DNA of 64,000 nt, from contig NZ_JANZKX010000001.1 in assembly GCF_027257975.1 (NCBI RefSeq), forward strand, positions 62,001 to 126,000, read 5' to 3'. This document shows, piece by piece, positions 17,377 through 35,578 of the stretch. The translations under genes were made by a program, and so were the position numbers. Positions within the stretch are counted from its first letter, which is position 1; every line of letters starts with the position of its first letter. Source of the stretch: Pelomonas sp. BJYL3 (GTDB taxonomy: Bacteria; Pseudomonadota; Gammaproteobacteria; Burkholderiales; Burkholderiaceae_C). The notes below the pieces were generated by a model that worked only from the letters and a program-made list of their open reading frames with translations, had not been told where the DNA came from and did no database searches.

Positions 17377-17401
17377 TGTGACATCCGTTCACACCGTCGC
17401 C

Positions 17402-17448
17402 CCTCTCAGCTTGGAGAGGTTACGCACCACCAGACGCATTCCTAGACT
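17402..17448 (+). promoter_or_regulatory. Putative lux box and promoter of the biosynthetic operon
   Basis: CCTCTC-AGCTTG-GAGAGG (17402-17419) is an 18-bp dyad. It abuts TTACGC (17420-17425), a weak -35, followed after 17 bp by TAGACT (17443-17448) within TTCCTAG. The dyad centre is about 33 bp upstream of the -10, near -44 relative to an expected start, the place where LuxR proteins activate. A related element with the same 41-bp offset lies before luxI. Binding is inferred. Confidence 0.5.
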
Positions 17449-17510
17449 GGCCCTGCCATATGCAGCAATGAGCGCATGGCGTCAACAGTCATCCATAGGA
17501 GAAACGTCTG

Positions 17511-17774
17511 ATGAGCACGACCACCACTGAAATCAGCCAAACCTTGAAGGCATGCCTGAGCGGCCTGGCACAGGGCGGCTCCGAAGTCGATCTGGTGAAC
17601 GAGGACACCAATCTGTTCGACGTGGGCATCGACTCGATGAACATGACCGAGCTGGTGCTGCGCATCGAGGAACGCTTCGGTCTGATGCTGATGCCCGAGG
17701 AGCTGTCGGCGGACCTCTTCACGCGCTACAGCCGCCTGGTGGACTTCGTCCAGCGGAAGCTGACCCATGAATGA
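17511..17774 (+). CDS. Acyl carrier protein
   Basis: An 87-residue stand-alone ACP. The phosphopantetheine attachment serine is S42 in VGIDSMNMTEL; the flanking helices (TELVLRIEERFGLMLMPEEL) have the normal ACP layout. The DSM in place of the fatty-acid DSL motif marks it as a specialised ACP. It is first in the cluster, behind the putative lux box, with AGGAG before the ATG, and overlaps the next gene by 8 bp (ATGAATGA). Likely carrier for the acyl chain handled by the ligase, ketosynthases and dehydrogenases downstream. Confidence 0.9.
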   Translation: MSTTTTEISQTLKACLSGLAQGGSEVDLVNEDTNLFDVGIDSMNMTELVLRIEERFGLMLMPEELSADLFTRYSRLVDFVQRKLTHE

Positions 17775-18822
17775 GATCGGCATCGTCGCCTCCTCGGCCT
17801 ACGTGCCGGCGGCCAGCCGCGGTCTCGTGCAGTTGCTGGCTGAAAGGCAGCCGCACGCCGAAGGCCGGACGGCTCGCTTCCTGCAGGCCTGCTTCGAGGA
17901 GAACCTGCGCATGCATGGCATCGCAAGAACGGCGCTGGACGCCGCGCAGGCCGGGCATGACGCGCCGACCCTGCAGGAAGTGACCGGCATGGTGGCCGTG
18001 GCCAGCGAGCCGGCCCTCGAGGCCTCCGAGCTGCTGCTGCGGGTGACGCGGGACCTGCTGCAGCCTGCCGGGGAGGCGACGGTGCCACCTGTGTCGACCT
18101 TTCTGGTCTGCCACACCTGTCTGGAGAACGACGTCACGATCTCGGCCGCCTGCCGGCTGCAGTCCGAGCTGCAACAGGGTCACGTGCCCTTTGCCATCGG
18201 GCAGCTGCAGGGGGCGACCTTCCTGATGGCCCTGTCCCTGGCCGCCGACCTGATGGCCACGAGCACGGACGACAGGATCGTCGTCGCCGCAGCCGAGCGC
18301 TGGTCCTGGCCCTACACGCGAGTGATCGGGCACACCACGCTGCTGGGCGACGGCGCCGGCGCGGTGCTGCTGGAACGCGGCTGCACACGGGGATGGATGC
18401 TGCGCGCCGTCCGCGTGCAGACGCCACCGCCCACGGCCGAGGTCTACCGCCACATCGTCCAGGGCCAGCCGCTGCCACTGAACCTGGACGGCCTGTGCGC
18501 CCTGATCCTGGACACCCTGCGCGAAGCGGGCTGCAGCCCCCGGGACATCGCCATCCTCGTGCCTCACCAGCTCAGCCGCCACCTCGCCGACTGCGTGCGC
18601 CGCCGCTGCGGACTGCACAAGGCCTGGTGCGGACCGGCCGACATCCTGGACGGCGGCTATCTCTGCGCGGCAGAGGTGCCGGTGCGCATGCACAGGCTGC
18701 TGCAGCAAGCCGTCGCCCATCCAGGCGATCGCATGCTGCTGTGGGGACTGGGTTTCGAAGGTGCGCTGGCCTGCGCGGTTCTCGAGTATGTGGATCAAGG
18801 AGTGAGCCATGGGAATCACTGA
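17767..18822 (+). CDS. Ketosynthase III-like protein A, catalytic Cys absent
   Basis: A 351-residue FabH/thiolase-fold protein. At the nucleophile position the sequence is GQLQGAT, with Gly149 where proteins B, C and D of this cluster have Cys; a Gln precedes it. A histidine is kept in VPHQLSRH (H267), and the usual third residue (Asn) is replaced in DGGYLCAAE. It cannot act as a Cys-dependent condensing enzyme. A partner or chain-length-factor-like role with protein B, with which it overlaps by 14 bp, is the simplest idea. Alignment is by eye. Confidence 0.75.
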   Translation: MNEIGIVASSAYVPAASRGLVQLLAERQPHAEGRTARFLQACFEENLRMHGIARTALDAAQAGHDAPTLQEVTGMVAVASEPALEASELLLRVTRDLLQPAGEATVPPVSTFLVCHTCLENDVTISAACRLQSELQQGHVPFAIGQLQGATFLMALSLAADLMATSTDDRIVVAAAERWSWPYTRVIGHTTLLGDGAGAVLLERGCTRGWMLRAVRVQTPPPTAEVYRHIVQGQPLPLNLDGLCALILDTLREAGCSPRDIAILVPHQLSRHLADCVRRRCGLHKAWCGPADILDGGYLCAAEVPVRMHRLLQQAVAHPGDRMLLWGLGFEGALACAVLEYVDQGVSHGNH

Positions 18823-19753
18823 GACCTTGCCCGCCATCGGCATCCCCGACATTGCCTGCTACCTCCCGGAGCGCAGGGTGTCGGTCGAGGAATGGGGGCA
18901 GCGCACCGGGCAGTCCGAGCAGCGCATCCAGGCCATGCTGGCCAATGGCGTCCGCTGCTTCCATGACGCGATGTCGCAGTCACCCGTGGGCATGGGCATC
19001 AAGGCAGTGCGACTGCTGATGACCAAGGCCCACATCGCGCCGCGCAGCGTGGACCTGCTGATCTACACCCACACGGTGCAGAGCAGCATCGCGCCGCCGC
19101 CCACCAGCACCGCGGGGCACATCCAGGCCTCCTGCGGGCTGCAGAACGCACTGAGCTTCTCCATCGCGCAGCAGAACTGCGTGTCGCCCATGCTGGCGGT
19201 GCGCATCGCACGCCAGATGATGGCGCGGCACGAACACATCCAGCGCGCCATCATCGTGTCCGTGGACCTGATGGGCACGACTGCGGACACCATCCGCGGC
19301 ATCCTGGACCTCTCGCTGCACAGCGATGGCGCCAGTGCCTTCCTGGTCGAGCGCGAGGCGCCCCGCAACCAGGTGCTGGGCTACCACTTCTTCACCGACG
19401 GCCGCTTCTTCCGCGGCACCGACGAGAACCACAACCTGGTGCCGGACGAGAAGTACCACTGGTCCTGCTTCGCCACCATGCGCTCGGCGCTGCAGCAGGC
19501 CGGCCTGCGGCCCGCCGACCTCACACGCATCCTGCCCAACCACGTGAACATGGAGGGCTGGCGACTGGTCCTGTCCATGCTGCGCCTGCCGCCCGAGCGG
19601 CTCTTCACCGACAACTTCGCTCGCATCGGCCACGTGTTCGGCTGCGATCCCTTCATCAACTTCCTGCACGAGCGCAAGACGTCGGGCGGTCACTACCTGC
19701 TGTTCAGCAGTGGGCTGGCCGGCTGCTTCGGCGCCCTCGTCCTGAAGCACTGA
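18809..19753 (+). CDS. Ketosynthase III-like protein B (Cys-His-His)
   Basis: 314 residues, FabH-like fold. Proposed nucleophile C124 in AQQNCVSPM; H245 in ILPNHVNMEG; and H275 in RIGHVFGCDPFINF in place of the FabH asparagine, so a Cys-His-His set as in FabB/FabF may form. Of the four ketosynthase-like proteins here it is the only one with all three positions filled. It shares the N-terminal VSVEEWGQ/VSVEDWAR and G-R-FH features with protein D, so B and D are one subfamily. Translationally coupled to A. Confidence 0.8.
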   Translation: MGITETLPAIGIPDIACYLPERRVSVEEWGQRTGQSEQRIQAMLANGVRCFHDAMSQSPVGMGIKAVRLLMTKAHIAPRSVDLLIYTHTVQSSIAPPPTSTAGHIQASCGLQNALSFSIAQQNCVSPMLAVRIARQMMARHEHIQRAIIVSVDLMGTTADTIRGILDLSLHSDGASAFLVEREAPRNQVLGYHFFTDGRFFRGTDENHNLVPDEKYHWSCFATMRSALQQAGLRPADLTRILPNHVNMEGWRLVLSMLRLPPERLFTDNFARIGHVFGCDPFINFLHERKTSGGHYLLFSSGLAGCFGALVLKH

Positions 19754-19772
19754 ACCTGAGGCAGGACACCCC

Positions 19773-21191
19773 ATGCAACGATTTTCCTGGAAGGCCCAGG
19801 CGGGCCACATGCCCTGGTTTGACGAGGCGCGGACGGCCCTCTCCCTGAGCGCCCACCTGCTGCTCGGGCAGGTCGCCCTGATGCTGATGCCCTTGATGGA
19901 CCTCTTCACGGTGGCGCCGCTGGGCTCGTCCGCACTCGCGGCGGTGGGCCTGCTCAACAGCTTCACCGCCCTGCTGCTGCTGTTCTGCTTCGGCGTGATG
20001 CAGGCCATTGCCCCGCTGACGGGCGCTGCACTGGCACGGACCGATGGCCGGCAGGGGGCGCGGCAGATCCTGTCCCAGGGGCTGCTGCTCGCCTCCGTCA
20101 TGGGCCTGGCGGCCGCCATGGCCACCCAGCTCTTCGCCTTTGCCGTGCCGTGGCTCGGGCAGGCCCCTGCGGTCGTGCAGGCCTTGCGCAGCTATGCGGA
20201 CACACTGGCCCCGGCCCTGCTCCCTGCCGCCTGGCTCACCGCCTGGCGGGTGGCCTATCCGCTGCTGGGACAGGCGCGGCTCCTGGCCCTCACCCTGATC
20301 GCCTGCTCTTTGCTGCATGGCCTCGCCAACCGCCTGCTGGTCCACGGTCTGGGCGAGCTGGACGGCTTGGGGCTCGCGGGCCTGGGATGGAGCTACCTGC
20401 TGAGCTACGGCCTCGCCGCCCTCTGTTTCGCCTGGCAGGACGGACGGACGGCGCGGGCCGCACCGGCCCCGCCGCCCCCCCCGCCGGACACGGCCGCACC
20501 GGCCTGGATTCCCCGGCTGCTGGCCATCGGCCTGCCCATCGGCGCGGTCATGGCCATCGAGTACACGCTATTCACCGGCGCCACCCTGCTGATGGGCCGT
20601 CACGGCGGACAGGCACTGGCCGCCCATGCCATCGCACTGCAGTGGGTGACCCTGGCCTTCATCGTCCCGCTGGCCATGTCCAACACGGTGCTCACCCGCC
20701 TGTCCCTGGCCCTGGGCCGCACGGACGCCGACGAGGTGCGGCGCGTGGTCGGCGTGTCCTGCGGCATCGCGCTGGCCTTCCATGTGGCCATCGCCCTGGT
20801 CTATGTGCTGATGCCGACGCCGCTGGCCGGCTGGCTGCTGCCGGCGGGCCACCAGGACCGCGAGGCCCTGCTCGACATCGCAACGCCCCTGCTGCAGCTG
20901 GCCGCCCTGCTGCAGGCCTTCAACGGCATGGCCGTCGTCTTCGCCGCCGTGCTGCGGGCCTGCCGGGACACCCGTGCCCCACTGCTGCAGGTCTTCGCCG
21001 GCTACTGGATCGCCGGACTCGGCAGCGCCTGGCTGCTGGGCGAGGTGCTGGGCCCGGTCGGCATCTGGCTGGGCATGTGCCTGGGCTTCGGCCTGACCAT
21101 CGTTCTCCTGCTGCGTCGCGTGCGCCAGCGACTGCTCAACCTGTCTGACATCTTCCCCCAACCGGAGGTAGCTCATGCGCAATCTCGTTGA
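19773..21191 (+). CDS. MATE-family efflux transporter
   Basis: 472 residues with about 12 hydrophobic segments and the MATE pattern (LGQVALMLMPLMDLFTVAPLG, then a second half starting LPIGAVMAIEYTLFTGATLLMG). The proline-rich loop near residue 232 is the joint between halves. MATE proteins export cationic or amphipathic small molecules by Na+ or H+ antiport. Sitting inside the cluster, 19 bp after protein B and overlapping the ligase gene by 17 bp, it is the probable exporter of, or self-resistance pump for, the product. Confidence 0.85.
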   Translation: MQRFSWKAQAGHMPWFDEARTALSLSAHLLLGQVALMLMPLMDLFTVAPLGSSALAAVGLLNSFTALLLLFCFGVMQAIAPLTGAALARTDGRQGARQILSQGLLLASVMGLAAAMATQLFAFAVPWLGQAPAVVQALRSYADTLAPALLPAAWLTAWRVAYPLLGQARLLALTLIACSLLHGLANRLLVHGLGELDGLGLAGLGWSYLLSYGLAALCFAWQDGRTARAAPAPPPPPPDTAAPAWIPRLLAIGLPIGAVMAIEYTLFTGATLLMGRHGGQALAAHAIALQWVTLAFIVPLAMSNTVLTRLSLALGRTDADEVRRVVGVSCGIALAFHVAIALVYVLMPTPLAGWLLPAGHQDREALLDIATPLLQLAALLQAFNGMAVVFAAVLRACRDTRAPLLQVFAGYWIAGLGSAWLLGEVLGPVGIWLGMCLGFGLTIVLLLRRVRQRLLNLSDIFPQPEVAHAQSR

Positions 21192-22764
21192 ACTCATCTG
21201 CAATAGTGCCGCGCGCACACCGACGGCGGAGGCGCTGGTCGACGGCGAACGCCGGACCGACTACGCCACGCTGCGCAACCGGGTCCTGGCTGGCGCTGCC
21301 GGGCTCCGCGCCCGCGGCCTGGCACGCGGCGAACGCGTCGGCCTGCTCCTGGACAAGCGCCAGGAGACCGTCGAGGCCTTCTTCGCGATCACCGCGGCCG
21401 GCGGTGTCTGCGTGCCCATCAATCCCCTGCTGAAGGCGGACCAGGTCGCGCACATCCTGAGGGACAGCGGCGCGCGTGGCCTCGTCAGCTCGGCCACGCG
21501 GGTGTCCCTGCTGGCCGCCGACAGGCCCGCGCTGCCCGAGCTGCGCGAGGTCTTCCTCGTCGACCAGGTCCGCAGCACGCCCGTGACCCTGGGGCAGGCC
21601 GCCACGGTGCGCTGGTCCGTTCTGCTGGACCATGCCCCCTGCGATCCGGGCGACAGCGGCACCATCGACAGCGACCTCGCCGCCATTCTCTACACCTCGG
21701 GTTCCACCGGCATGCCCAAGGGCGTCATGCTGACCCACCACAACCTCCTGGAGGGTGCCTGGAGCGTGGCCCACTACCTGGGCAACGGCCCGACGGACCG
21801 CATCCTGTCGGTGCTGCCGCTGAGTTTCGACGCCGGCCTGAGCCAGCTCACCACGGCCTTCCATGCGGGTGCCGCCGTGGTGCTGCTCAACTACATCGCG
21901 CCAGGTGACGTGGTCCAGCTGTGCGAGCGTGAGCGCATCACCGGCATCACGGCGGTGCCGCCGCTGTGGATCCAGCTCTGCGGCGCCTCCTGGCCCGCGG
22001 CAGCAACACGCCACCTGCGCTACTTCGCCAACACCGGCGGGCGCATGCCCCGCCCCGTGCTGGAGCGCCTCCGCGCCCTCTTCCCGCAAGCCAGCCCGTT
22101 CCTGATGTACGGGCTGACCGAGGCCTTCCGCTCGACCTACCTGGACCCCGCGGAAGCCGCACGGCGCCCGGATTCCATCGGCAAGGCCGTGCCCAATGCG
22201 CGCATCCTGGTCGTCAGGCCCGACGGCAGCCCCTGCGCTGCCAACGAGGTCGGCGAGCTGGTCCACGTGGGCGCCTTCGTGACCAAGGGCTACTGGCGCG
22301 ACCCGGAGCGAACGGCCCTGCGCTTTCGCCCGTCTCCCGAGCCGCGCCCCTACCCGGAGCTGCCGCCCGAAACGGCGGTGTGGTCGGGTGACCTGGTGCG
22401 CCGCGATGCCGAGGGCTTTCTCTACTTCGTCGGACGCAACGACGGCCTGATCAAGACCTCCGGCTACCGCGTCAGTCCCGAAGAGGTCGAGGAGGCCGTG
22501 CTGGCCAGCGGCCTGGTGGGCGAGGTGGTGGCCCTGGGCCTGCCCGACGAGCGCCTGGGCCAGGTCATCGCGCTGGTCGTGGCGCCGGTGCCCGGCCTGG
22601 CGGCCGATCCCGAGGCCATCCTCGCGCACTGCAAGCAGCGCCTCCCGCCCTACATGGTGCCGCACGCGGTGCATGTGCGAGAGGCCATCGCCCGCAACCC
22701 CAATGGCAAGTTTGATCGCACAGGCCTGCTGCACGAGTACAGCAGCGGCAAGGAGTCGGCATGA
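21175..22764 (+). CDS. AMP-forming acyl-ACP/CoA ligase, exosortase-A-associated type
   Basis: 529 residues of the ANL superfamily: A3 loop ILYTSGSTGMPKG near residue 171, YGLTEAFRSTYL, the hinge/A8 region RNDGLIKTSGYRVSPEEVEE and the terminal lysine in NPNGKFDRTG. The N-terminal pattern (TLRNRVLAGAAGLRARGL, LLDKRQETVEAFF, PINPLLKADQVAHIL) resembles the acyl-CoA ligase family usually found in exosortase-A loci (TIGR03098, from memory). It activates a carboxylic acid, possibly loading the cluster ACP. It overlaps the decarboxylase gene by 4 bp, keeping the family pairing. Confidence 0.85.
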   Translation: MRNLVELICNSAARTPTAEALVDGERRTDYATLRNRVLAGAAGLRARGLARGERVGLLLDKRQETVEAFFAITAAGGVCVPINPLLKADQVAHILRDSGARGLVSSATRVSLLAADRPALPELREVFLVDQVRSTPVTLGQAATVRWSVLLDHAPCDPGDSGTIDSDLAAILYTSGSTGMPKGVMLTHHNLLEGAWSVAHYLGNGPTDRILSVLPLSFDAGLSQLTTAFHAGAAVVLLNYIAPGDVVQLCERERITGITAVPPLWIQLCGASWPAAATRHLRYFANTGGRMPRPVLERLRALFPQASPFLMYGLTEAFRSTYLDPAEAARRPDSIGKAVPNARILVVRPDGSPCAANEVGELVHVGAFVTKGYWRDPERTALRFRPSPEPRPYPELPPETAVWSGDLVRRDAEGFLYFVGRNDGLIKTSGYRVSPEEVEEAVLASGLVGEVVALGLPDERLGQVIALVVAPVPGLAADPEAILAHCKQRLPPYMVPHAVHVREAIARNPNGKFDRTGLLHEYSSGKESA

Positions 22765-23975
22765 GCATCTTTGAAAGTTACAAGGCCCCCCAGGGCGTCC
22801 TCGAGATCGGGGGCCTGCCCCTGCCACGACTGGCCGAACGGGCCGGTCAGACGCCCTTCTTCGTCTACGACCGCAGCAAGCTTGGCGAGCGCGTGGCCCT
22901 GCTGCGCCAGATGCTGGCGCCGGAGCTGCGCATCCACTACTCGATCAAGGCCAACCCCATGCCGGCCCTGGTCCAGCACATGGCCTCGCTGGTCGACGGC
23001 TTCGACGTGGCCTCGGCCGGCGAGATGCGCATGGCCCTGGACGCCGGCATGCCGGCCCGGCATGTCTCGATGGCGGGGCCGGGCAAGTCCTCGCAGGACC
23101 TGCGCGGTGCCGTGGGCGCGGGGGTGACCGTCACGCTCGAATCGGCCCACCAGCTGGAGGCCGTGGAGCGCATCGGCCGGGAGCTGGGCGTGCGGCCGCG
23201 CGTGGGCCTGCGCATCAATCCGGACTTCCAGCCGCGCAGCAGCGGCATGCGCATGGGCGGCGGGCCCCGCCAGTTCGGGGTCGATGTCGAGCAGGCGCCC
23301 GCGCTGTTGAAGGTCATCGCCGAGCGTGACCTCGACTTCGTCGGCTTCCACGTCTTCTGGGGCTCGCAGTGCCTGGACCCCGGCACGGTGATCGCCGCCC
23401 AGCGCCACGTCGCCGAGCTGGTCATGCGCCTGGCCGACCTGGCCGGCGACAGCCTGGAGTTCGTCAACATGGGCGGCGGCTTCGGCATCCCCTACTTCGA
23501 CAACGAGCGCCCGCTGGACATCGGCGCCGTGGGCGCGGCCATGCAGGAATGGCTGACGCCCCTGCGCCGGCGCCTGGCCGGCACGCGGCTGATCCTGGAG
23601 TTCGGGCGCTACCTGGTGGGCGAGGCCGGCCTCTATGTGTGCCGGGTGCTGGACAAGAAAGTCTCGCGCGGCGAGACCTTCCTGATCACCGACGGCGGCC
23701 TGCACCACCAGCTGGCGGCGTCTGGCAACTTCGGCCAGGTCCTGCGCCGCAACTACCCGGTGGCCATCGGCAACCGCATGGACAGCGGGCAGACCGAGAC
23801 CTGCCATGTGGTGGGCTGCCTGTGCACCCCGCTGGACCGGCTGGCCGACAACGTGGAGCTGCCGGCCGCCGAGATCGGCGACCTGTTCGTGGTGGCCCAG
23901 TCCGGCGCCTACGGCCGCAGCGCCAGCCCGAGCGCCTTCCTGAGCCATCCCCTGCCTGTCGAGATCCTGGTGTAG
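22761..23975 (+). CDS. PLP-dependent decarboxylase, exosortase-A-associated type
   Basis: 404 residues, alanine-racemase-fold type III PLP decarboxylase: PLP lysine K63 in HYSIKANPMP, GFHVFWGSQ, NMGGGFGIPYF, TDGGLHHQLAASGNFGQV and CTPLDRLADNVELP. The pattern fits the exosortase-A-associated decarboxylases (TIGR03099, from memory) better than LysA, which has a different C-terminal CES motif. Relatives such as BtrK decarboxylate an aminoacyl group while it is attached to an ACP. With the ligase and ACP in the same operon, decarboxylation of a carrier-bound amino acid is a reasonable guess; the substrate is not known. Confidence 0.85.
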   Translation: MSIFESYKAPQGVLEIGGLPLPRLAERAGQTPFFVYDRSKLGERVALLRQMLAPELRIHYSIKANPMPALVQHMASLVDGFDVASAGEMRMALDAGMPARHVSMAGPGKSSQDLRGAVGAGVTVTLESAHQLEAVERIGRELGVRPRVGLRINPDFQPRSSGMRMGGGPRQFGVDVEQAPALLKVIAERDLDFVGFHVFWGSQCLDPGTVIAAQRHVAELVMRLADLAGDSLEFVNMGGGFGIPYFDNERPLDIGAVGAAMQEWLTPLRRRLAGTRLILEFGRYLVGEAGLYVCRVLDKKVSRGETFLITDGGLHHQLAASGNFGQVLRRNYPVAIGNRMDSGQTETCHVVGCLCTPLDRLADNVELPAAEIGDLFVVAQSGAYGRSASPSAFLSHPLPVEILV

Positions 23976-23994
23976 CGCCAGACAAGGAGCTGAC

Positions 23995-25134
23995 ATGTCG
24001 ATTCACACCGAACCCCAGACGGCGTCCCAGTCTGCCGGGCCCTTCTCCCTCAGCATCAGCGAGGACCAGCGCCAGATGCTGGAACCGGTGCGGCGCTTCG
24101 CCCGCGAACGCCTGCAGCCGCTGCTCAACGAGGCGGCCACCGAGGTGCGTCGTCAGGAGGCCCGGCAGACCGCGCAGCAGCTGGGCCTGGCCAGCGCGAT
24201 GTTGTCCGAACGCCAGGGCGGCCTGGGCATCCAGCCCTTCGAGCTGTGCCTGCTGCTCGAGGAGCTCGCCAGCGGCCCCCTGGGGCTGGCGGCCGAGCTG
24301 ACCATCTCACTGCCTGCCCTGGCCCTCAGCCGCGACCATGAATGGCTATGCCGCCTGCTGCCCCAGGACAGCGAAGCCCTGCTCGCCGGCCAGCGGGCCC
24401 TGCCGCTGGCCGTGGCGGCCCCATCGCCCAAGCCCACCTTTGCTCTGTTGCCGCGACAAGCCGCGGGCCTGCTGGTGCTGGCGCCGGATGGGGACGGGCG
24501 CTGGCGCCTTCGTTGGCTGGACGAAGTGGCCCTGCACGATCTGGTGCCGCCCAGCGCCGAGGCGCAGGTGAGCGAGGGGCTGCGCCTGGTCCGCCTGCCG
24601 CCGGCCGGCGAGATCCACGGCACCGGCTTCAGCGCCACGCTGCCGGCCGGCGCCTGCCAGTCCATCCTGGTCTGGCAGGGGCTGTGGCTGGCGGGGCTCC
24701 TGGCCGGCGCCGCCCGCGCCGCCACCGCCTTCGCCTTCAGCTACGCCCAGACGCGGGTCGCCTTCCAGCGCCCCATCATCCACCACCAGGCTGTGGCCCT
24801 GAAGCTGGCGGACATGGCCATCGCCACGGACGCCCTGCGCCTGCAGGTCTGGGACGTCGCGACCCGCCTCGCCCGGCCCGACCGCCTGCCAGCGGGGCAC
24901 TTTGCCGCGATGGCCCGGCAGGTGATGGGCGCCAGCCTGGAGATCCACCGGCATGCCGTGCAGGTCTGTGGCGGCCATGGCTATGTCGAGGGCTTCCCGC
25001 CGGCGCGCCGCTTCCAGAATGCGCGGGTGCTGGGTCTCATGCTGATGGAACTGGCACAGGCCAGCGCCCAGGAAGAGGCGGCATTCGAGGAGGCCCGCGG
25101 CGATGCGGGCGTCAACCGCAGGGTCCTTGTGTGA
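23995..25134 (+). CDS. Degenerate acyl-CoA dehydrogenase-like protein
   Basis: 379 residues. The N-terminal helical domain and the C-terminal domain (FSYAQTRVAFQRPIIHHQAVALKLADM, CGGHGYVEGFPPARRFQNARVL) are of acyl-CoA dehydrogenase type. The middle beta-domain lacks the usual (M/I)TEPxxGSD flavin motif, and the catalytic-Glu region normally reading YEGT is replaced by LMLMEL after NARVL. FAD binding may be partial and dehydrogenation unlikely in the classic way. It could be a partner subunit of the canonical dehydrogenase at 29904. Overlaps the next gene by 4 bp (GTGA). Confidence 0.75.
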   Translation: MSIHTEPQTASQSAGPFSLSISEDQRQMLEPVRRFARERLQPLLNEAATEVRRQEARQTAQQLGLASAMLSERQGGLGIQPFELCLLLEELASGPLGLAAELTISLPALALSRDHEWLCRLLPQDSEALLAGQRALPLAVAAPSPKPTFALLPRQAAGLLVLAPDGDGRWRLRWLDEVALHDLVPPSAEAQVSEGLRLVRLPPAGEIHGTGFSATLPAGACQSILVWQGLWLAGLLAGAARAATAFAFSYAQTRVAFQRPIIHHQAVALKLADMAIATDALRLQVWDVATRLARPDRLPAGHFAAMARQVMGASLEIHRHAVQVCGGHGYVEGFPPARRFQNARVLGLMLMELAQASAQEEAAFEEARGDAGVNRRVLV

Positions 25135-25658
25135 ACGCCCCCGCGCGCTTCTTCATGCGCAGCCCCGGGCCGGAGGACCTGGACCGGGTGCATGGCTGGA
25201 TGGCGGACCCGGACGTCCACGGCTGGTTCGACTTCGGCCTGGGCCGCCAGCAGGTCAGCACGGTCGCGCTGACCATGATGGCCCGCAGCCCCCAGTACTG
25301 CATGAGGGTCTTCGGTGAACAGGGGACCGACGCCCCCCTGGGCATCGTGGTGCTCAGCGAGGTGCAGCACCCCTTCGGTACCGCCCATTTCTGGGTGGTC
25401 CGGGACCGCCGGCGCTCCGCCTACCCGGGCATCACGGCGGACGCCAGCCGGGCTCTGCTGCATGAGGGCTTCGATCAGCTCGGCCGATGCGCCATCAATG
25501 CCTGGGTCGTGGAAAGCAATGAACGCTCCCTGCGTCTCCTGCAAGCCGTGGGCTTCCAGATCTATGGCGTGCAGCAGGCATGCCACCGGCTGGGCGGGCG
25601 TCTCCTGGGCCGCGTGCACCTGGAGCTGCTGCCCCAATGGTTTTACCGACAGTCCTAG
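25131..25658 (+). CDS. GNAT-family N-acyltransferase
   Basis: 175 residues starting at a GTG that overlaps the preceding TGA. The pattern MRSPGPEDLDRVHGWMADPDV, IVVLSEVQHPFGTAHFWVVRDRRRS and the C-terminal NAWVVESNERSLRLLQAVGFQ are typical of GNAT acetyltransferases (the last being the ESNxxxxRLxxxxGF motif). The acyl-CoA P-loop is less regular than the family norm. The frame is open far upstream, but only this part is coding; the rest is a shadow of the dehydrogenase gene. A tailoring N-acyltransferase acting on an amine made by the decarboxylase would fit. Confidence 0.7.
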   Translation: MNAPARFFMRSPGPEDLDRVHGWMADPDVHGWFDFGLGRQQVSTVALTMMARSPQYCMRVFGEQGTDAPLGIVVLSEVQHPFGTAHFWVVRDRRRSAYPGITADASRALLHEGFDQLGRCAINAWVVESNERSLRLLQAVGFQIYGVQQACHRLGGRLLGRVHLELLPQWFYRQS

Positions 25659-25701
25659 AGATTCGCCAGCGTGGGTTTCTCGTGCATTCGAAGGAGTTGT
25701 G

Positions 25702-26742
25702 ATGAGTGAGTTGTGGCGATGCACCGTGACAGGCAGCAGCCTCTGCCTGCCCCATACCCGATCCTGGTTCCACGGCCTGCGGGCGCAGCAGCGGACCCCC
25801 AGCAGCCTGTACCTGACGGAACCGGGCAGCGAGTACAACCTGCCCTTCGGTCGCTGGGGCGACCCGCCCTTCCCCCAGGTGGAAGCGATGTACACCCCGG
25901 CCCCCGTGCTGCTGCACATGGCCGAGCCCGGCGTCAGCGCCTCGGACCTGGCCCTGGTCGCCGCACGCGCCGTGGTCGCGGAGCAGGGCAAGACCTGGCA
26001 CGGCAAGAACAGGACCATCGACATCCTCATCTACTGCCACAGCACCTCCAACGAGGACATCGCCGATGCCATCGGCGGACGCCTGCAGTACGAGCTGGGC
26101 CTCACGACGCCGCTGGTGTTCTGCCTCTCGCAGAACCTGTGCAGTGCGCTGATGGCCCTGCGCCTGGCCACGGCCCTGCTGCAGGAGGAGCCCGGCCTGC
26201 AGCGCGCCCTCATCGTGGCCTCGGAGAAGTGGATCCACCCCTTCGTGCGCAGCTTCGGGCAGGCAGCGGTCTTCGAGGACGGCGCGGCGGCCGTGCTGAT
26301 TGAGCGGGCCGGCGGCCAGGGCTGGCAGCTCGGCGAGATCCATCACGTCAATGCGCCCGATGCCCCCTCGCCCTTCGACAGCACCGTGCCGGCCATGCTG
26401 CGCCTGATGAGCGAGCAGGCACCGCGAGCCATCCGCAGCCTGCTGGAGGCCGAGGGCGTGGCCCCGGCCGATCTCGCCTTCGTCGCCCAGCCCACCCTGG
26501 ACGCCACCCTGTGCGCCCAGGTGCTGAGGGATGCCGGGCTGGAGCATCTGCGCCTGCGCCCGCACGGGGAGCGCCGCGGCCACCTGGCCTCGGCCGAGGC
26601 CCTGGCCAATCTGCATGAGCTGCGGCATGCCGGGACGGCGCAGCGGGGGCAGATGGGCCTGCTATGGGGCGTGGGGCTGCAGGGTGAAGCCGCGTGCTGC
26701 CTGCTCAGGCCGGCGCAGGCCGAGATGGAGGAGCAACGATGA
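25702..26742 (+). CDS. Ketosynthase III-like protein C (Cys present, His lost)
   Basis: 346 residues of FabH-like fold, related to protein A. The nucleophile is C147 in SQNLCSALMALRLA. The position of the active-site histidine reads VAQPTLD and has none; GHLASAE (H294) stands at the third position. Without the histidine, decarboxylative condensation is doubtful; acyl transfer or a scaffold role is possible. Start at the ATG after AAGGAG; a 43-bp gap from the GNAT gene may hold a weak promoter. Overlaps protein D by 4 bp, repeating the A-B arrangement. Confidence 0.75.
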   Translation: MSELWRCTVTGSSLCLPHTRSWFHGLRAQQRTPSSLYLTEPGSEYNLPFGRWGDPPFPQVEAMYTPAPVLLHMAEPGVSASDLALVAARAVVAEQGKTWHGKNRTIDILIYCHSTSNEDIADAIGGRLQYELGLTTPLVFCLSQNLCSALMALRLATALLQEEPGLQRALIVASEKWIHPFVRSFGQAAVFEDGAAAVLIERAGGQGWQLGEIHHVNAPDAPSPFDSTVPAMLRLMSEQAPRAIRSLLEAEGVAPADLAFVAQPTLDATLCAQVLRDAGLEHLRLRPHGERRGHLASAEALANLHELRHAGTAQRGQMGLLWGVGLQGEAACCLLRPAQAEMEEQR

Positions 26743-27722
26743 GCGCGCCGCGTACCCCCTTCGGCATCGAGGCCGCCAGCCACTATCTGCCATCACGTGT
26801 CTCGGTGGAAGACTGGGCACGGGCTCATGGTGTCCCCGACGAGACGCTGCAGGTCCTGCATGACAACGGCATGCGCTACTTCCACCATGCCGGCGAGGCC
26901 ACGGTAGAGCAGCTGGCCTCCCGGGCCCTGGACACGCTCTTCGAGCAGCACGCGATCGACCCGGCCTCGGTGGACCTGCTGGTCTATGTGCACTCGCTGC
27001 CCAGCAGCATGCCTGCCCCGCCCTCGAGCCTGCCGGCCCGGCTGGCCACCACCTTCGGCCTGCGGCAGGCCCGCAGCTTCGCCCTGACCGGCCAGAACTG
27101 CGCCAGCCTCCTGGCCGCCCTGCGCGTCATGCGCAGCCTCTTCCTGGCCGAGCCGCAGCTCAACCGGGTGCTGCTGGTCAGTGCCGATCGGGCCTGCGGC
27201 GAGCGCTACCGCGAAGTCGGCGCCTTCTCCTTCGAAAGCGACGGCGCCTGCGCCCTGCTGCTGTCCCGCCACCATCCCTTCAACAGGCCGCTGGCCTTTG
27301 CGGGGCATGTGGACGGCCGGCATCACGGCGGCTTCCGGCGGCCGCAGGCCCGCACCCACGAGTACCGGGCGCTCTACGGCCTGGTCGCCCATCGCCTGAT
27401 CAGCCGCACGGCACAGGCCAGCCAGCTGGCCCTGGAGGACTTCCGCCACCTGCTGCCCGTCAACCTGGACCGGCATGTGTTCGAGCGGCTGGCGGCCAGC
27501 CTGCATATGCCGGTGGACTGGGTATTCACGGCGAATATTGCCGAGCATGGCCACGTCATGTGCTGCGACGTGGTCATCAATCTGCTGGACCTGTGGGACC
27601 GGCATGCCTTGGACGCCCGGGAGAACCTGCTCTTCTTCATGTCAGGCAACAACGGTTCATTTGCCACCATGGCGCTTGGCAACTGTCAATCCTTTCACGA
27701 GGGTCGACCCATGAACAAGTGA
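26739..27722 (+). CDS. Ketosynthase III-like protein D (Cys present, His to Asn)
   Basis: 327 residues, paralog of protein B (shared VSVE-W, NG-R-FH, LDLWDR/INLL features). C121 in TGQNCASLL is the proposed nucleophile; the histidine of B (H245) corresponds to N242 in LLPVNLDRH; the third position is H272 in EHGHVMCCDVVINLL. Start at the ATG overlapping the stop of C. With C it forms the second tandem pair. Role unknown; loss of the histidine suggests acyl transfer or priming more than chain extension. Confidence 0.75.
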   Translation: MSAPRTPFGIEAASHYLPSRVSVEDWARAHGVPDETLQVLHDNGMRYFHHAGEATVEQLASRALDTLFEQHAIDPASVDLLVYVHSLPSSMPAPPSSLPARLATTFGLRQARSFALTGQNCASLLAALRVMRSLFLAEPQLNRVLLVSADRACGERYREVGAFSFESDGACALLLSRHHPFNRPLAFAGHVDGRHHGGFRRPQARTHEYRALYGLVAHRLISRTAQASQLALEDFRHLLPVNLDRHVFERLAASLHMPVDWVFTANIAEHGHVMCCDVVINLLDLWDRHALDARENLLFFMSGNNGSFATMALGNCQSFHEGRPMNK

Positions 27723-27736
27723 CATGAAGTGCTAGC

Positions 27737-27750
27737 CTCACGGCCGTGAG
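27737..27750. promoter_or_regulatory. 14-bp perfect palindrome between protein D and luxR
   Basis: CTCACGG-CCGTGAG lies 14 bases after the stop of protein D and 158-171 bases before the luxR ATG. No T-run follows, so it is more like an operator than an intrinsic terminator. Candidate site for control of luxR. Confidence 0.4.
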
Positions 27751-27907
27751 CTTGCACGCTGCACGAAGCGTTTGATTCTCGATGTGTAGGCGCGGCCAGA
27801 CTGCGCCCCGAAGACCATCGATGCGCTACTCACCGGAGGGCTTGCGAGCGCGTACGGGAATCGTCGGAAGAACGACCCGCCCGCTCGAGGTGTTGTGGGA
27901 GTTTCTG

Positions 27908-28636
27908 ATGCGCGAATTCATCGAGGACGCCGGCCAGGCTGACAGCCTTCCCGTGCTCCTGGCATCGTTCGAACGGGCGGTCCGCCGCCTCGACTTCGAG
28001 CACTATTCCTTCTCCTGTTGGGAGGCCAAGGGTGGCTCCGGCGCCTCGCCGGCGGGCGAGCATCGCATCCTGGCGCAGAACTATCCGTCCCCCTGGGTGG
28101 ACCGCTACCGGGATCGCGACTATTTCAGCAAGGACCCCGTCATCCGCCATGCGCGCGGCACGGTCAAGCCCTTCCAGTGGAGCGACCTGACCGTGCAGGG
28201 CAGCCGCGAAGAGGCGGTGCTGCAGGAAGCCCTCGCCGCCGGGCTGCGCGAGGGCATGGCCGTGCCCATCCATGAACCCTGGGGACGGATCTACCTGACG
28301 ACCCTGGCCACCCGGCGGGCCGCGTCCTCGGCCAGGATCGACGCGGAGCAGCTGAGGACCCAGGCCCACATGCTGGCCGTCATCTTCCATGCCCGCTATG
28401 CGGCGCTGGGCGGGCTGCAGTCCCGGGACCGGCTCGTCGGCCTGACACCGCGGGAAAGCGAGTGCCTGACCTGGGTGGCCCAGGGCAAGTCGTCCTGGGA
28501 CATCGGGCAGCTGATGGCGGTGTCCGAGCACACGGTCAACTTCCATCTGAAGAATGCCATGCGCAAGTTCGATACCGCCAGCCGGGTGACGGCAGCGGTC
28601 CGCGCGGCCAGCCTGGGCCTGATCCACCTGCCCTGA
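27908..28636 (+). CDS. LuxR-family quorum-sensing regulator
   Basis: 242 residues from the ATG at 27908, which follows TGGGAG and gives the normal LuxR length; an in-frame start exists at 27782. The autoinducer-binding residues of TraR are all present with a constant offset: W63, Y67, D76, P77 and W91, plus G116 in REGMAVP. The C-terminal GerE helix-turn-helix (LTPRESECLTWVAQGKSSWD, SEHTVNFHLKNAMRKF) is complete. It should bind an acyl-homoserine lactone made by the LuxI 613 bp downstream and act on lux-box-like sites before the ACP gene and luxI. Confidence 0.92.
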   Translation: MREFIEDAGQADSLPVLLASFERAVRRLDFEHYSFSCWEAKGGSGASPAGEHRILAQNYPSPWVDRYRDRDYFSKDPVIRHARGTVKPFQWSDLTVQGSREEAVLQEALAAGLREGMAVPIHEPWGRIYLTTLATRRAASSARIDAEQLRTQAHMLAVIFHARYAALGGLQSRDRLVGLTPRESECLTWVAQGKSSWDIGQLMAVSEHTVNFHLKNAMRKFDTASRVTAAVRAASLGLIHLP

Positions 28637-28644
28637 GCCCATCA

Positions 28645-28671
28645 CCGGCGCTGTGCAGCGCGCAGCGCCGG
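28645..28671 (+). terminator. Hairpin downstream of luxR
   Basis: CCGGCGCTG/CAGCGCCGG, two perfect 9-bp arms with a 9-base loop, starting eight bases after the luxR stop. There is no T-run, so it may be a weak or Rho-assisted end or an mRNA 3' stabiliser. Confidence 0.5.
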
Positions 28672-28817
28672 ACAACCGTGCGGCAACGCGGGCCCTCGTG
28701 CCAGGCGCAGACGCCTCACGCCCTGCCCGCTCGCACCGATCACCGGCCGCCTGGCTGCAGGGCCCCGACTGCGTCCACAGCCACCGAGGCAGGCTTGCGC
28801 CCCCCGGCATGGAGCCT

Positions 28818-28833
28818 GGGGTCAGGTCTTGCC
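28818..28833 (+). repeat. Dispersed 14-mer motif, copy 3
   Basis: GGGGTCAGGTCTTGCC in the luxR-luxI gap; non-coding. Confidence 0.7.
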
Positions 28834-29057
28834 AGCCATGCCTTCGACCCCAGCACTGGCCGGGGCGTCGAACCCCCTGTCGATGACAGCAGCCCCGCAC
28901 CGCCAAGGCCCTGAGGGCTCGCTGACGTGACGCTGCGCCCTGCCTCGCAGGGGCGCGCCGAGCGAAGCGGGCGCCTCTGCCGCGCCTGCTGCCCTCCGTC
29001 ATCGTCGATGGCCTCGATGCCTCACCCGATGCGTTACCCGATGCCTAGCCGCCGGCC

Positions 29058-29090
29058 CTTGCAATCGCCTTGCAATCGCCTTGCAAGTCC
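29058..29090. repeat. Three 11-bp tandem repeats
   Basis: CTTGCAATCGC at 29058-29068 and 29069-29079, then CTTGCAAGTCC at 29080-29090. They lie about 85 bp upstream of the lux-box-like element of luxI. The TTGCAA core is itself a small palindrome. Confidence 0.6.
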
Positions 29091-29173
29091 CTGCTCTCAG
29101 ACAGCTTCGTGCATGCGTCGCCATGCCTGTTTCACGCTGGAGCCCAGGCGCGCCGGGCATCGCCTGCGTTCAA

Positions 29174-29220
29174 GCTCTCTGACTGGGTAGGTGCCTGGCC
29201 AGGCTCGATGTTCCTAGCAT
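29174..29220 (+). promoter_or_regulatory. luxI promoter with lux-box-like element
   Basis: GCTCTCTGACTGGGTAGG (29174-29191) matches the ACP-gene dyad at 12 of 18 positions. Exactly 41 bp after its first base comes TAGCAT in TTCCTAGCAT (29215-29220), the same offset as in front of the ACP gene. A further perfect palindrome GCCTGGCCAGGC lies at 29193-29204. Suggests LuxR autoregulation of signal synthesis. Confidence 0.45.
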
Positions 29221-29249
29221 CCCACGCATGCCAACGGGAGGAGCCCTCC

Positions 29250-29888
29250 ATGATCGAAGTCCATCCATCCCTGCCCGCCGATTCGCCCGTGGCGCAGGAG
29301 CTCTACCACTTCCGCTACCGTGTCTTCGTCCAGCATGCCGGCTGGGAATTGCCCTGCCAAAAGCAACAGGAGCGCGACCAGTTCGACACGCCAGGCGCCG
29401 TCCATCTGGTCAGCCGTGCGGCCAATGGCCGCATCGCGGGGCTGCTGCGCCTGCTGCCCACGACGGCGCCCTACATGATCGAGAAGCTCTGGCCCGATCT
29501 GCTGGCGCCCTATCCGGCGCCGCGCTCCCCACAGATCTGGGAGGTCACGCGACTGGGCACGGACCCCGAGCTGGGCCTGCTCGAGCGCGGCCAGACTGTC
29601 GCCGAGCTGGTCACCGCCTGCCTCGAGTACGGCCTGGACCATGGCATCCAGCAGATGCTGGCCGTGATGAGCGAGGACCACGCACGCCGTGTCGTCATGG
29701 GCATGGGATGGCGCTACGAGCGCTGCGGTCCCACGCGCCTGCTGGGCGGCTCGCCCGTCATCGCCCTGCGCCTCAGGCTCAGCGAGGACGCGCTGGCCCG
29801 CGTACGCCAGCGCACCCGCCTGACGGCTCGACTGTGCCCCCAAGCCCATTCGTCGCGGGCCCTGCCCGCCCTTGCCCTGCCTGCCTGA
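29250..29888 (+). CDS. LuxI-family acyl-homoserine-lactone synthase
   Basis: 212 residues. All eight family-invariant residues are present at a constant offset of -2 from LuxI numbering: R22, F26, W32, D43, D46, R67, E98 and R101 (in FRYRVF, HAGW, ERDQFD, GLLRLL and WEVTRLG). It joins SAM and an acyl donor to make an acyl-homoserine lactone. ATG after GGGAGGAG; a longer frame from 29070 is not supported. The acyl group cannot be read from sequence; an acyl-CoA dehydrogenase gene 15 bp downstream may shape it. Confidence 0.95.
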   Translation: MIEVHPSLPADSPVAQELYHFRYRVFVQHAGWELPCQKQQERDQFDTPGAVHLVSRAANGRIAGLLRLLPTTAPYMIEKLWPDLLAPYPAPRSPQIWEVTRLGTDPELGLLERGQTVAELVTACLEYGLDHGIQQMLAVMSEDHARRVVMGMGWRYERCGPTRLLGGSPVIALRLRLSEDALARVRQRTRLTARLCPQAHSSRALPALALPA

Positions 29889-29903
29889 GAAAGGACCCTC
29901 TCC

Positions 29904-31106
29904 ATGAACCTGAGTACCGACTTGCAACTCGAACAGCTGCAGCAGCGGCTGCATGACATGGGCCTGTCCACGCAGGACCTCTGCAGCGCCATGCGGCAGC
30001 ACGCCGCCGCCGTCGATGAAACGGGCGACATCCCATCCGGATTCTGGAAGCAGGTCTCCGTGCGGGCCTTGAACCTCAACCTCGTGCCCCCCGAGCACGG
30101 CGGCGACGAGGGGCTGTGGCCCCTCATGCAGCGCGTGCTGCTGATGGAGCAGCTGGGCCACGCTGACCCGGCGCTGGCACTGGCCCTGCCCGGGCCCGGC
30201 CTGTCCACGCCGCCCTTGCTGGCGCTGGCCTCGCAGGAGCAGCAGCGCGAGCTGTTCAGCCGATTCCAGAGCGACGTGCCCGTCTGGGGAGGCTTCGCCA
30301 TCACGGAGCCGGACATCGGTTCCGACGCCACGGCCCTGCGCACCAGCGCCCGGGCCTGCAGCGAGGGCTATGTGCTGAACGGCACCAAGTGCTTCATCAC
30401 CAATGGGGCGCGAGCCGACTTTGTGGTCACCTTCGCCACCCTGGACAAGGGTCGGGGTCGCTTCGGCGTGCGGGCCTTTGCCGTCGACCGCCGGACGCCC
30501 GGCTTCCAGGTCGTACGCCTGGAGAAGATGCTGGGGCTGCGGGGCAGCCAGCTGGCCGTGCTGTCCTACGCCGACTGCCTGGTGCCGCACGAGAGCCTGC
30601 TGCAGCGCGGGGACGAAAGCCGGCTGCATGACGCCTTCTCCGGCGCGCAGAGCTCCTGGGACTATTTCCGGCCGGTGCTGTCCTCGGTGATCGTCGGCAG
30701 CTGCGCCCGGGTGCGCGACGAGCTCGTGAGCTATCTGGAAGCCGCCAGACCGCAGTCCGCCCACTGGGGGCAGCAGCAGGTGGCCGCCATGCTCAGCAAC
30801 ATCAGCGGCAAGATCAGCGCGGCGCGCCTCCTGTGCCACAAGGCGGCATGGCGCCATGAGCAGGGCCTGCCGGTGTCCAAGGATTCGTCCATGGCCAAGG
30901 CCTATGCCTCGCGCATCGCCATGGAGATCGCGGAGACCGTGCTGCAGACCGTGGGGCTCGAAGGCCTGCACGAGCACCCCGTGTTCGAGCGCTTCTACCG
31001 CGACGCCAAGGCCTACGACATCCTGGAGGGCACCGGCGACATGCAGCGCCTGATGGTCGCGCGACTGCAGCAGCGTCAGAGCGTCGAGAACGGCATGCTG
31101 GCCTGA
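29904..31106 (+). CDS. Acyl-CoA dehydrogenase (canonical)
   Basis: 400 residues with complete motifs: FAITEPDIGSDATALRT (flavin/acyl binding), GTKCFITNGARADF, LRGSQLAVLSYADCLVP, and AYDILEGTGDMQR with the catalytic Glu in the EGT position. It oxidises an acyl thioester to the alpha,beta-unsaturated form using FAD. It lies 15 bp after luxI and is probably co-transcribed with it. It could desaturate the cluster product or the acyl donor of the signal; it may also pair with the degenerate dehydrogenase at 23995. Confidence 0.9.
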   Translation: MNLSTDLQLEQLQQRLHDMGLSTQDLCSAMRQHAAAVDETGDIPSGFWKQVSVRALNLNLVPPEHGGDEGLWPLMQRVLLMEQLGHADPALALALPGPGLSTPPLLALASQEQQRELFSRFQSDVPVWGGFAITEPDIGSDATALRTSARACSEGYVLNGTKCFITNGARADFVVTFATLDKGRGRFGVRAFAVDRRTPGFQVVRLEKMLGLRGSQLAVLSYADCLVPHESLLQRGDESRLHDAFSGAQSSWDYFRPVLSSVIVGSCARVRDELVSYLEAARPQSAHWGQQQVAAMLSNISGKISAARLLCHKAAWRHEQGLPVSKDSSMAKAYASRIAMEIAETVLQTVGLEGLHEHPVFERFYRDAKAYDILEGTGDMQRLMVARLQQRQSVENGMLA

Positions 31107-31476: not shown

Positions 31477-32358
31477 TCAGCTCTTGGCCTGCCGGCGCAG
31501 CAGCAGCGAGGTATCCGCCGCCGTCGGCAAGCCGGCCCCCAGGCGCAGTTCCGAATCGAGCACCAGGCGGCTGCGCAGGCCGGCCTGCAGCAGGTCCAGA
31601 TGCCGCTGGTTCTCGACGATATGCGCCAGCATCAGCTTGCGGACCTGGTCGGCATCCGCCTTGCGCACGGCGGCGAGGATCTTGCGGTGAGCCCGCCAGG
31701 CCGCCTCGCCCAGGCGCTGGTGTTCATCCTGCGTGGCGTGCAGAGAGGACACCACCATGGTCTCCAGCATGCGATTGATCAGCCTGCACTGGAAGCGCAG
31801 GAAGGGATTGGGGCAGGCCTCGGCCAGGATGTCGTGGAAGTGCAGGTCCTCGACGCGCTGCATGGCCGCCGGATGGGTGTTGTCCTGGCTCGGGTTGGAG
31901 ATCTCGATGCTGCGCTCCAGGGCTTCGAGATCGGCGTCGCTGAGATGCGGCACGGCCAGCGCAGCCATCTCGGGCTCGAGCATGCGGCGCAGGGCGTAGA
32001 TGTCCCCGATGGTGATGTCCTGGAAGAAGAGGTAGTTCTGCAGGAACTGGAAGGTCCGATCCAGGGTGACGCGCTCGATGGTAGCGCCACCGGCCGGCCC
32101 CGTGCTGAGCCGGATCAGGCCCTGGACCTCCAGCGCCTTCAGGGCTTCACGCATGGTGCCCCGGCTCACGCCGAACATCTCCTGCAGCTCGGCTTCCTTG
32201 GGAAGCTTCTCGCCCGGGTTCAGGTTCCGGCCGGTGATCCAGCGCTTGATTTCCTCAACGACCAAGTCCCCTCTTTTGAGGCCGCGCTGCGCAACCTGTT
32301 TCTTCGTCACCGCCGCTCCCGGCTGTTCTGGCTGCGAGCGATGATACCGTAGGCCCAC
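31477..32358 (-). CDS. GntR/FadR-type transcriptional regulator (FCD domain)
   Basis: About 293 residues from a GTG at 32358; a second GTG 16 codons later is as plausible. The N-terminal winged helix reads EKLPKEAELQEMFGVSRGTMREALKALEVQGLI; the C-terminal FCD domain shows DLHFHDILAEACPNP and the HRKILAAVRKADADQVRKLMLAHI stretch with its metal-binding histidines. It lies 32 bp after the DUF1185 gene on the same strand, so it is probably the last gene of the transporter operon and represses it through the palindromes at 39200, 39253 and 40897. Confidence 0.88.
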   Translation of the reverse strand: MGLRYHRSQPEQPGAAVTKKQVAQRGLKRGDLVVEEIKRWITGRNLNPGEKLPKEAELQEMFGVSRGTMREALKALEVQGLIRLSTGPAGGATIERVTLDRTFQFLQNYLFFQDITIGDIYALRRMLEPEMAALAVPHLSDADLEALERSIEISNPSQDNTHPAAMQRVEDLHFHDILAEACPNPFLRFQCRLINRMLETMVVSSLHATQDEHQRLGEAAWRAHRKILAAVRKADADQVRKLMLAHIVENQRHLDLLQAGLRSRLVLDSELRLGAGLPTAADTSLLLRRQAKS

Positions 32359-32390
32359 CGGGCACCAGGGCGTGGCACAGCCTGCGTCCG

Positions 32391-35529: not shown

Positions 35530-35578
35530 GAGGGGATCCTTTCCTTGCATGAGATGAGTGGGATTGCTCTGGCGTGAC

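Follow-up and report, generated by a model that had tools for sequence, protein, structure and literature searches.

A conserved thirteen-gene cluster in Pelomonas sp. BJYL3, predicted to encode a variant aspartate/β-alanine carrier pathway under probable quorum control

The closest described relatives of the locus reported here are the afc cluster of the Burkholderia cepacia complex, which makes AFC-BC11, and the bolagladin (bol) cluster of Burkholderia gladioli. In the AFC-BC11 study, AfcQ activated L-aspartate and not β-alanine, AfcP decarboxylated the aspartate on AfcK, and the coupling was iterative; the KAS III-like protein AfcL joined the chain to lysyl-CoA, and production ceased when afcL, afcO or afcP was deleted (PMC12186527). 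The bolagladin work proposes the same aspartate start and backs it with two deletions, of bolN, which abolished the product, and of bolQ, which left β-alanine in place of dehydro-β-alanine (PMC7756342). In the butirosin (BtrI/BtrK) and vicenistatin (VinN/VinO) pathways, an amino acid is likewise loaded through its distal carboxylate and then α-decarboxylated on a carrier; VinN/VinO and BtrK are described in PMC11284099 and PMC7857480. Here, we report on a thirteen-gene cluster in a 64,000-nucleotide stretch of Pelomonas sp. BJYL3 (contig NZ_JANZKX010000001.1, positions 62,001 to 126,000 of the forward strand; hereafter the window). The source genome comprises 5.24 Mb in 28 contigs. The locus is real, conserved and largely interpretable, as a variant of the aspartate/β-alanine carrier pathway under probable quorum control. 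On balance, we think it probable that it forms an N-acyl homoserine lactone (AHL)-controlled operon for a small secreted N-acyl-(dehydro)-β-alanyl compound, which would be made without a modular nonribosomal peptide synthetase (NRPS) or polyketide synthase (PKS).

All thirteen frames are present on the plus strand between 17511 and 31106 (coordinates are those of the window). Their order is ACP (acyl carrier protein), K1, K2, MATE, LIG, DEC, ACD1, GNAT, K3, K4, LuxR, LuxI and ACD2, where K denotes KAS III/FabH-like proteins. Ten of the products (ACP, K1-K4, MATE, LIG, DEC, ACD1 and GNAT), together with LuxI, match Pfam above the gathering score; LuxR and ACD2 were assigned from NCBIfam matches under the curated cut-offs and from alignments. 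The genes from ACP through K4 are ten tightly packed genes, with spacings of -8, -14, +19, -17, -4, +19, -4, +40 and -4 bases, followed by gaps of 185 bases to luxR, 613 to luxI and 15 to ACD2. Because of these spacings, luxR, and likewise luxI-ACD2, may be units separate from the ACP-K4 block. The grouping of the genes is not due to chance, since both other genomes of the genus keep their order, with proteins that are 66-97% identical.

The thirteen-gene set on one strand had been proposed in a first-pass annotation made from the letters alone, and it stands, as all frames are present and their order is conserved in the genus. The start given there, 17402, falls outside any gene and within an upstream palindromic element (17401-17420). 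The annotation also saw no modular PKS or NRPS, and indeed no multidomain synthetase with condensation or ketosynthase modules was found among the 13 cluster proteins scanned. Its claim that an NRPS adenylation/condensation set is missing holds for the condensation part; one stand-alone NRPS-type adenylation domain is present, in LIG. This protein had carried the generic label of an AMP ligase, which is here corrected to an amino-acid adenylating enzyme.

The cluster resembles afc in having one ACP, a VinN-type ligase with the same compared pocket, a predicted carrier-bound decarboxylation dependent on pyridoxal phosphate (PLP) and a KAS III-like pair of the AfcO/AfcR kind, and in having no condensation domains. 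In contrast to the cluster, afc has a fatty acyl-AMP ligase, a citrate synthase, an O-methyltransferase and a lysine part; the first three were not found among the scanned cluster and neighbour proteins. In their place, the cluster has a second KAS III-like pair, the GNAT and MATE proteins, ACD1/ACD2 and LuxI/LuxR. Bolagladin, which we compared by description and not by sequence, shares the proposed route from aspartate to β-alanyl-ACP (BolO, BolC and BolN), the KAS III homologues BolM/BolP and an acyl-CoA-dehydrogenase-type enzyme, BolQ, that makes dehydro-β-alanine. It differs by a tetramodular NRPS and a citrate-primed fatty acid. Butirosin and vicenistatin share the predicted loading and decarboxylation steps but belong to other final pathways, and the cluster is without aminoglycoside or modular PKS genes. 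The gene set, first thought unfamiliar, is therefore partly familiar: its ACP, VinN-type ligase, BtrK-type decarboxylase, KAS III-like pair and acyl-CoA-dehydrogenase-type enzyme are parts of the β-alanine cassette of bolagladin and AFC-BC11.

The predicted first substrate follows from LIG (21175..22764, +), a VinN/AfcQ-type stand-alone adenylation enzyme that scores 721 bits against TIGR03098 (cut-off 592). It is 49% identical to the AfcQ homologue of B. arboris (L068:17131-18708). We take the B. arboris locus as an afc cluster because its ACP Ser40, its AfcL-like Cys111 and the Thr at the Cys position of its AfcR-like protein match AfcK, AfcL and AfcR as described in PMC12186527, and because a citrate synthase gene comes next. 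At the nine compared pocket positions, LIG and the AfcQ homologue both read DASWATMRS, and they also agree at D219, R319 and K512 of LIG, of which Arg319 and Lys512 correspond to Arg311 and Lys503 of AfcQ. The pocket positions were selected by what we take to be the PheA numbering. Position 264, checked later because of this assumption, agrees in all ten cluster LIGs and the AfcQ homologue and is Phe in S. meliloti. Among the ten cluster LIGs long enough for the pocket comparison, eight carry DASWATMRS and two, from Caballeronia, DANWATMRS; the RubriMAG ligase, truncated by the end of its locus, was excluded. LIG thus combines the stand-alone VinN-type form with an Asp and an Arg for the α-amino and α-carboxylate groups, and a discrete carrier accompanies it, the ACP (17511..17774, +; PF00550, 40.5 bits), with its carrier serine placed at Ser42 by alignment. 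Because the pocket equals that of the AfcQ homologue and AfcQ activates L-Asp, LIG is predicted to act on the side-chain carboxylate of L-Asp. A role as an acyl-CoA ligase was set aside, as the pocket and the closest solved relatives are mostly of the amino-acid adenylating kind, though acyl-CoA ligases match too.

DEC (22761..23975, +) is a BtrK-like PLP decarboxylase with 573 bits against TIGR03099 (cut-off 478). Its best match in the PDB is BtrK at 1.4e-78, compared with 1.5e-42 for the best diaminopimelate decarboxylase. Lysine, ornithine and diaminopimelate decarboxylases were rejected as weaker matches than BtrK. As the substrate of BtrK is glutamyl-ACP, this match also feeds a different explanation, which we consider unlikely. 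Here, the cassette would load another acidic amino acid, either glutamate, giving a γ-aminobutyrate unit as in butirosin, or 3-methylaspartate as in vicenistatin, and the KAS III-like proteins would form C-C bonds towards a pyrroline/pyrrolidine-type product. The 3-methylaspartate enzyme VinN would count among the closer relatives of LIG with a solved structure, if PDB entries 3wvn and 3wv4, titled non-ribosomal peptide synthetase, are VinN, as we take them to be. The nearest folds of K2 include PqsBC and FabH, in keeping with C-C chemistry. The LIG pocket argues against a different acidic substrate, being that of the homologue of an enzyme that used L-Asp.

Ligase/decarboxylase pairs of this kind are not confined to the cluster. 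Of 274 class genomes, 34 have a TIGR03099 decarboxylase match at E ≤ 1e-100, which in 30 exceeds the cut-off. At the 30 class-wide TIGR03099 loci, a LIG match was found in 27 and the pocket was readable in 26, with DYSWTSMRS in 21, DYNWTSMRS in three and DASYATMRS in two. The Asp, Arg and Lys trio is kept in all 26, so that this recognition trio is common to the family and the exact pocket of the cluster is the one of the AfcQ homologue. The source genome itself has a second TIGR03098/TIGR03099-type pair (L043, L092; G000:C25:377133-378326), near diguanylate cyclase and flippase genes and with the pocket DASYATMRS. On pSymB of S. meliloti (L065:10364-13179), a ligase/decarboxylase pair with the pocket DASWATMRS lies among glycosyltransferase genes; exosortase genes were not found in the annotated stretch around it.

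Such pairs pose the question whether the product could be, in place of a diffusible metabolite, a β-aminoacyl group that decorates a surface polymer, a role that TIGR03098/TIGR03099 pairs in exosortase/polysaccharide loci may have. LIG and DEC do score above the cut-offs of families that take their names from the exosortase A system, and the glycosyltransferase neighbours of the S. meliloti pair fit the same idea. However, no glycosyltransferase, exosortase or polymerase was found among the scanned cluster and neighbour proteins, and no exosortase/PEP-CTERM genes among the scanned proteins at ~13.7-39.1 kb of the window; LuxI and LuxR match exosortase-linked models below the cut-off only. The presence of a MATE exporter and of two KAS III-like pairs also speaks against a polymer, as does the cluster pocket, which is unlike the DYSWTSMRS that predominates in the class-wide ligases (21 of the 26 readable). 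We therefore regard a surface decoration as improbable.

The four KAS III-like proteins were assigned by Pfam, alignment and tree. K1 (17767..18822, +) has a Gly at the catalytic Cys position and K2 (18809..19753, +) has Cys124, so that a Cys-less and a Cys-bearing member are paired in K1/K2 only; K3 (25699..26742, +) and K4 (26739..27722, +) both have the Cys. At this position, K1 carries Gly in seven of nine copies and Asp in both from B. cenocepacia, and in the Roseateles group and P. citrulli the other three proteins retain the Cys. K2, K3 and K4 have His where FabH has Asn. In the Roseateles group and P. citrulli, K1 retains the FabH His, and this position is taken by Asn in K2, by Pro or Met in K3 and by Val, Ile or Glu in K4. 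K2 and K4 are related to AfcO (29% identity over 280 and 310 residues), and K3, of the partner-type clade, to AfcR (32% over 315 residues), with which K1 aligns over 97 residues only. A tree of 54 rows, in which several long branches were flagged, splits K1/K3-type from K2/K4-type proteins. K1 and K2 each join their Burkholderia-lineage counterparts in starred clades of nine rows. The K3 and K4 proteins of Roseateles and P. citrulli are nearer to AfcR- and AfcO-like rows (88/81 and 94/85, not starred), and the second pair of the Burkholderia lineage is nearer to the first pair (84/87 and 90/77, not starred). This may reflect an exchange of the second KAS III-like pair.

The AlphaFold2 model of K2 (pLDDT 88) matches ChlB3, NatS, DpsC, FabH, PqsBC and CerJ with Z from 34.6, for ChlB3, to 33.1; that of K1 (pLDDT 83) has a FabH fold, with FabH as first match. 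The K1/K2 pair recalls PqsBC, a KAS III-like pair in which one member lacks the catalytic Cys, and PqsC is among the matches of K2. An alkylquinolone-like or other ketide could in principle arise from PqsBC-like KAS III heterodimers, with the amino-acid cassette giving the starter only. We hold this to be very unlikely. The sequence similarity to PqsBC is low and the heteromer in our cluster is itself a prediction; anthranilate-type loading or a PqsD-like gene was not found among the cluster proteins scanned, and the closest pairs by sequence are those of afc.

The two dehydrogenase-like proteins form a second unequal pair. ACD2 (29904..31106, +; NCBIfam and alignment), an acyl-CoA-dehydrogenase-type enzyme, has a FAITEP motif and an LEGTGD motif containing Glu375, which is presumably the catalytic base. 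This Glu is kept in ten of ten aligned cluster copies; the P. citrulli ACD2, cut by a contig end, was excluded from the alignment. ACD1 (23995..25134, +; Pfam and alignment) has gaps at both motif places in all ten copies. Two independent dehydrogenases were rejected, given the lack of the Glu in ACD1, and ACD1 is probably the partner of ACD2 in a heteromer. The first-pass annotation had stated that all building parts are present; this is true of the gene set, though not every copy would be catalytic, as K1 is without the active-site Cys and ACD1 without the Glu.

A 20-bp inverted repeat resembling a lux box lies at 17401..17420 (+), 110 bases 5' of the ACP start. It is followed by a -10-like element, TAGACT (CCTA core; 17443..17448, +). 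A repeat and, behind it, a CCTA-type -10 element precede the first cluster gene in nine of nine loci: the repeat stands 109-110 bases before the chosen ACP start in all four Roseateles-group/P. citrulli loci, and in all five Burkholderia-lineage loci it lies 131-136 bases ahead of the ACD2 start chosen there. A matrix made from the first four sites ranks the site top among the plus-strand 20-mers of the locus in each of these five, in Pararobbsia only narrowly (14.9 vs 14.0). With at most one mismatch, the pattern gives three rows in the window, two of which are the 17401 site on both strands, against 0.16 expected, and the derived pattern has this site as its sole exact match in the genome. 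A one-mismatch copy lies at 52264-52283 of the window. In a search for further genomic targets, one-mismatch sites were not commoner than in a backward control (6+6 rows vs 9+9).

LuxR (27908..28636, +; NCBIfam and alignment) is a receptor whose frame is open from 27782 and whose start was set by alignment, as was that of the AHL synthase LuxI (29250..29888, +; PF00765, 75.3 bits, cut-off 24). Both genes are inside the cluster in all seven loci of the Roseateles group, P. citrulli and the Burkholderia lineage whose records extend to this point. In the draft genomes of P. citrulli DSM 17060, C. mineralivorans and P. alpina, no luxI other than that of the cluster was found; the source genome has a second luxI away from the cluster (L001, G000:C12:305705-306244). 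The conserved repeat and -10 element support control of the cluster by LuxR, and the cluster is, to judge from its sequence, probably under quorum control. A quorum-sensing-controlled route to a small amino-acyl metabolite, as first annotated, is upheld as a predicted link by anatomy, conservation and the upstream element. In Acidovorax citrulli, aacR (Aave_3810) spans 729 bases by the coordinates in PMC7060138; the phenotypes published for AacI/AacR are virulence and motility, not the chemistry of the cluster. The luxR frame of the P. citrulli cluster is also 729 bases long, and because of this shared length AacI/AacR are probably the pair of that cluster, the comparison being one of frame length alone.

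The block has the same order and surroundings in all three genomes of the genus, namely the source, Mitsuaria sp. WAJ17 and Roseateles subflavus APW6. Matches to K2 occur in 52 of 150 family genomes, two strong (source and WAJ17) and 50 weak at FabH level, and, at E ≤ 1e-9, in six of 369 class genomes (the source strong, five weak). The cluster is rare outside the genus. Ten loci came from one scan of named genomes that used a K2 alignment, and orthologous clusters are found in Paracidovorax citrulli, Caballeronia, Pararobbsia and Burkholderia cenocepacia. Gene order in P. citrulli DSM 17060 is the same, at 50-77% identity. The Burkholderia-lineage loci (two from Caballeronia, Pararobbsia alpina, and B. 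cenocepacia NCTC13227 and CMCC(B)23006) read ACD2-ACP-K-K-LIG-DEC-ACD1-GNAT-K-K-LuxR-LuxI as far as each record reaches; that of Caballeronia sp. SEWSISQ10-4 2 stops behind LIG and that of NCTC13227 inside luxR. Within these record ends, no MATE match was found in the five loci, and GNAT is found in every cluster whose record spans its place. In NCTC13227, the decarboxylase gene is split by an insert of ~2.5 kb (L075:12559-16291) and is intact in CMCC(B)23006. Two metagenome-assembled genomes (MAGs) hold a rearranged set with most cluster genes, and a Bacillus locus among the matches is distant. One further candidate (G471, L033) was rejected, having only one KAS III-like and one weak ligase match. 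A search of titles and abstract openings, with subscription journals mostly outside its reach, found no description of this cluster, and the main text of a survey of luxR-linked clusters contains none of the six terms looked for (PMC5872303).

In the pathway we propose, LIG would adenylate the side-chain carboxylate of L-Asp and load the amino acid on ACP, and DEC would strip the α-carboxylate to give β-alanyl-ACP, possibly over several rounds as for AfcQ/AfcP. The free amine would be acylated by GNAT (25131..25658, +; PF13302, 45 bits, GTG start picked from the sequence) and/or a KAS III-like pair, and the ACD1/ACD2 heteromer would add an α,β double bond. The K1/K2 and K3/K4 pairs would perform acyl transfer and release, and the predicted MATE-family exporter (19773..21191, +; PF01554, 98.8 bits) would export the product. 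LuxI would make the signal and LuxR would activate the ACP operon via the repeat at 17401-17420.

Several points weigh against this proposal. A fatty acyl-AMP ligase of the AfcA kind is missing from the cluster, which leaves the N-acyl donor a guess. DEC shares only 27% identity with the AfcP homologue. Because the FabH His and Asn positions are replaced, the chemistry of the KAS III-like proteins may be unlike that of FabH and of AfcL, and the Foldseek and VIA fold matches do not choose among amide, ester and C-C chemistry, that is, between an acyltransferase and a condensing enzyme. The second KAS III-like pair does not appear clearly orthologous across lineages, and for this reason the products may differ between them. 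As for regulation, the matrix test was run on regions where the box had been seen beforehand, palindrome and las-type scans gave no clear box before luxI in the source genome, and luxI was not found anywhere in the genomes of the two MAGs that carry most of the set.

More tentatively, and with less confidence than we place in the pathway itself, the cluster might stand for a separate class of quorum-controlled short N-capped (dehydro-)β-alanine oligomers or enamides, made by one adenylation enzyme, one carrier and two duplicated KAS III-like heterodimers that form amides and not C-C bonds. If so, the one AHL synthase found in each of P. citrulli, Caballeronia mineralivorans and Pararobbsia alpina would have these metabolites as its local output. 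Extended further, this reading would make the common TIGR03098/TIGR03099 pair a source of β-aminoacyl thioesters, elsewhere for surface polymers. An unexplained gene list has in any case become a pathway with a predicted first substrate, testable via the close match to an enzyme of a recently solved antifungal pathway; AFC-BC11, made with a ligase that has the same compared pocket, is strongly antifungal. The prediction would also link AHL signalling to a specific chemistry in several Burkholderiales, the plant pathogen P. citrulli among them, and it suggests a biochemical role for TIGR03099 decarboxylases, so far named from gene neighbourhood only.

A larger, distantly related set lies on plasmid p2 of Rahnella aceris (L066:3445-20833), with a type III PLP enzyme, three adenylating enzymes, KAS III-like proteins, acyl-CoA dehydrogenases, a P450 and a luciferase-like monooxygenase.

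Next to the cluster, on the minus strand, are a GntR-type regulator (31477..32358; NCBIfam) and, at 32391..39144, genes for an AA_synth protein (PF06684), an amidase and UrtA-like/branched-chain-type ABC uptake; all are conserved neighbours and candidates only. They adjoin the cluster in all three genus genomes. AA_synth is not specific to the cluster, since 22 of the 118 family genomes outside the genus have homologues at E ≤ 1e-30. In the Burkholderia lineage, GntR lies beside ACD2 in five of five loci, all of which also have an amidase or UrtA-like match close by, so that the block (31477-39144) stays next to the cluster in both lineages despite rearrangement. A functional tie between the two is possible, because ACD2 sits at opposite cluster ends in the two lineages.

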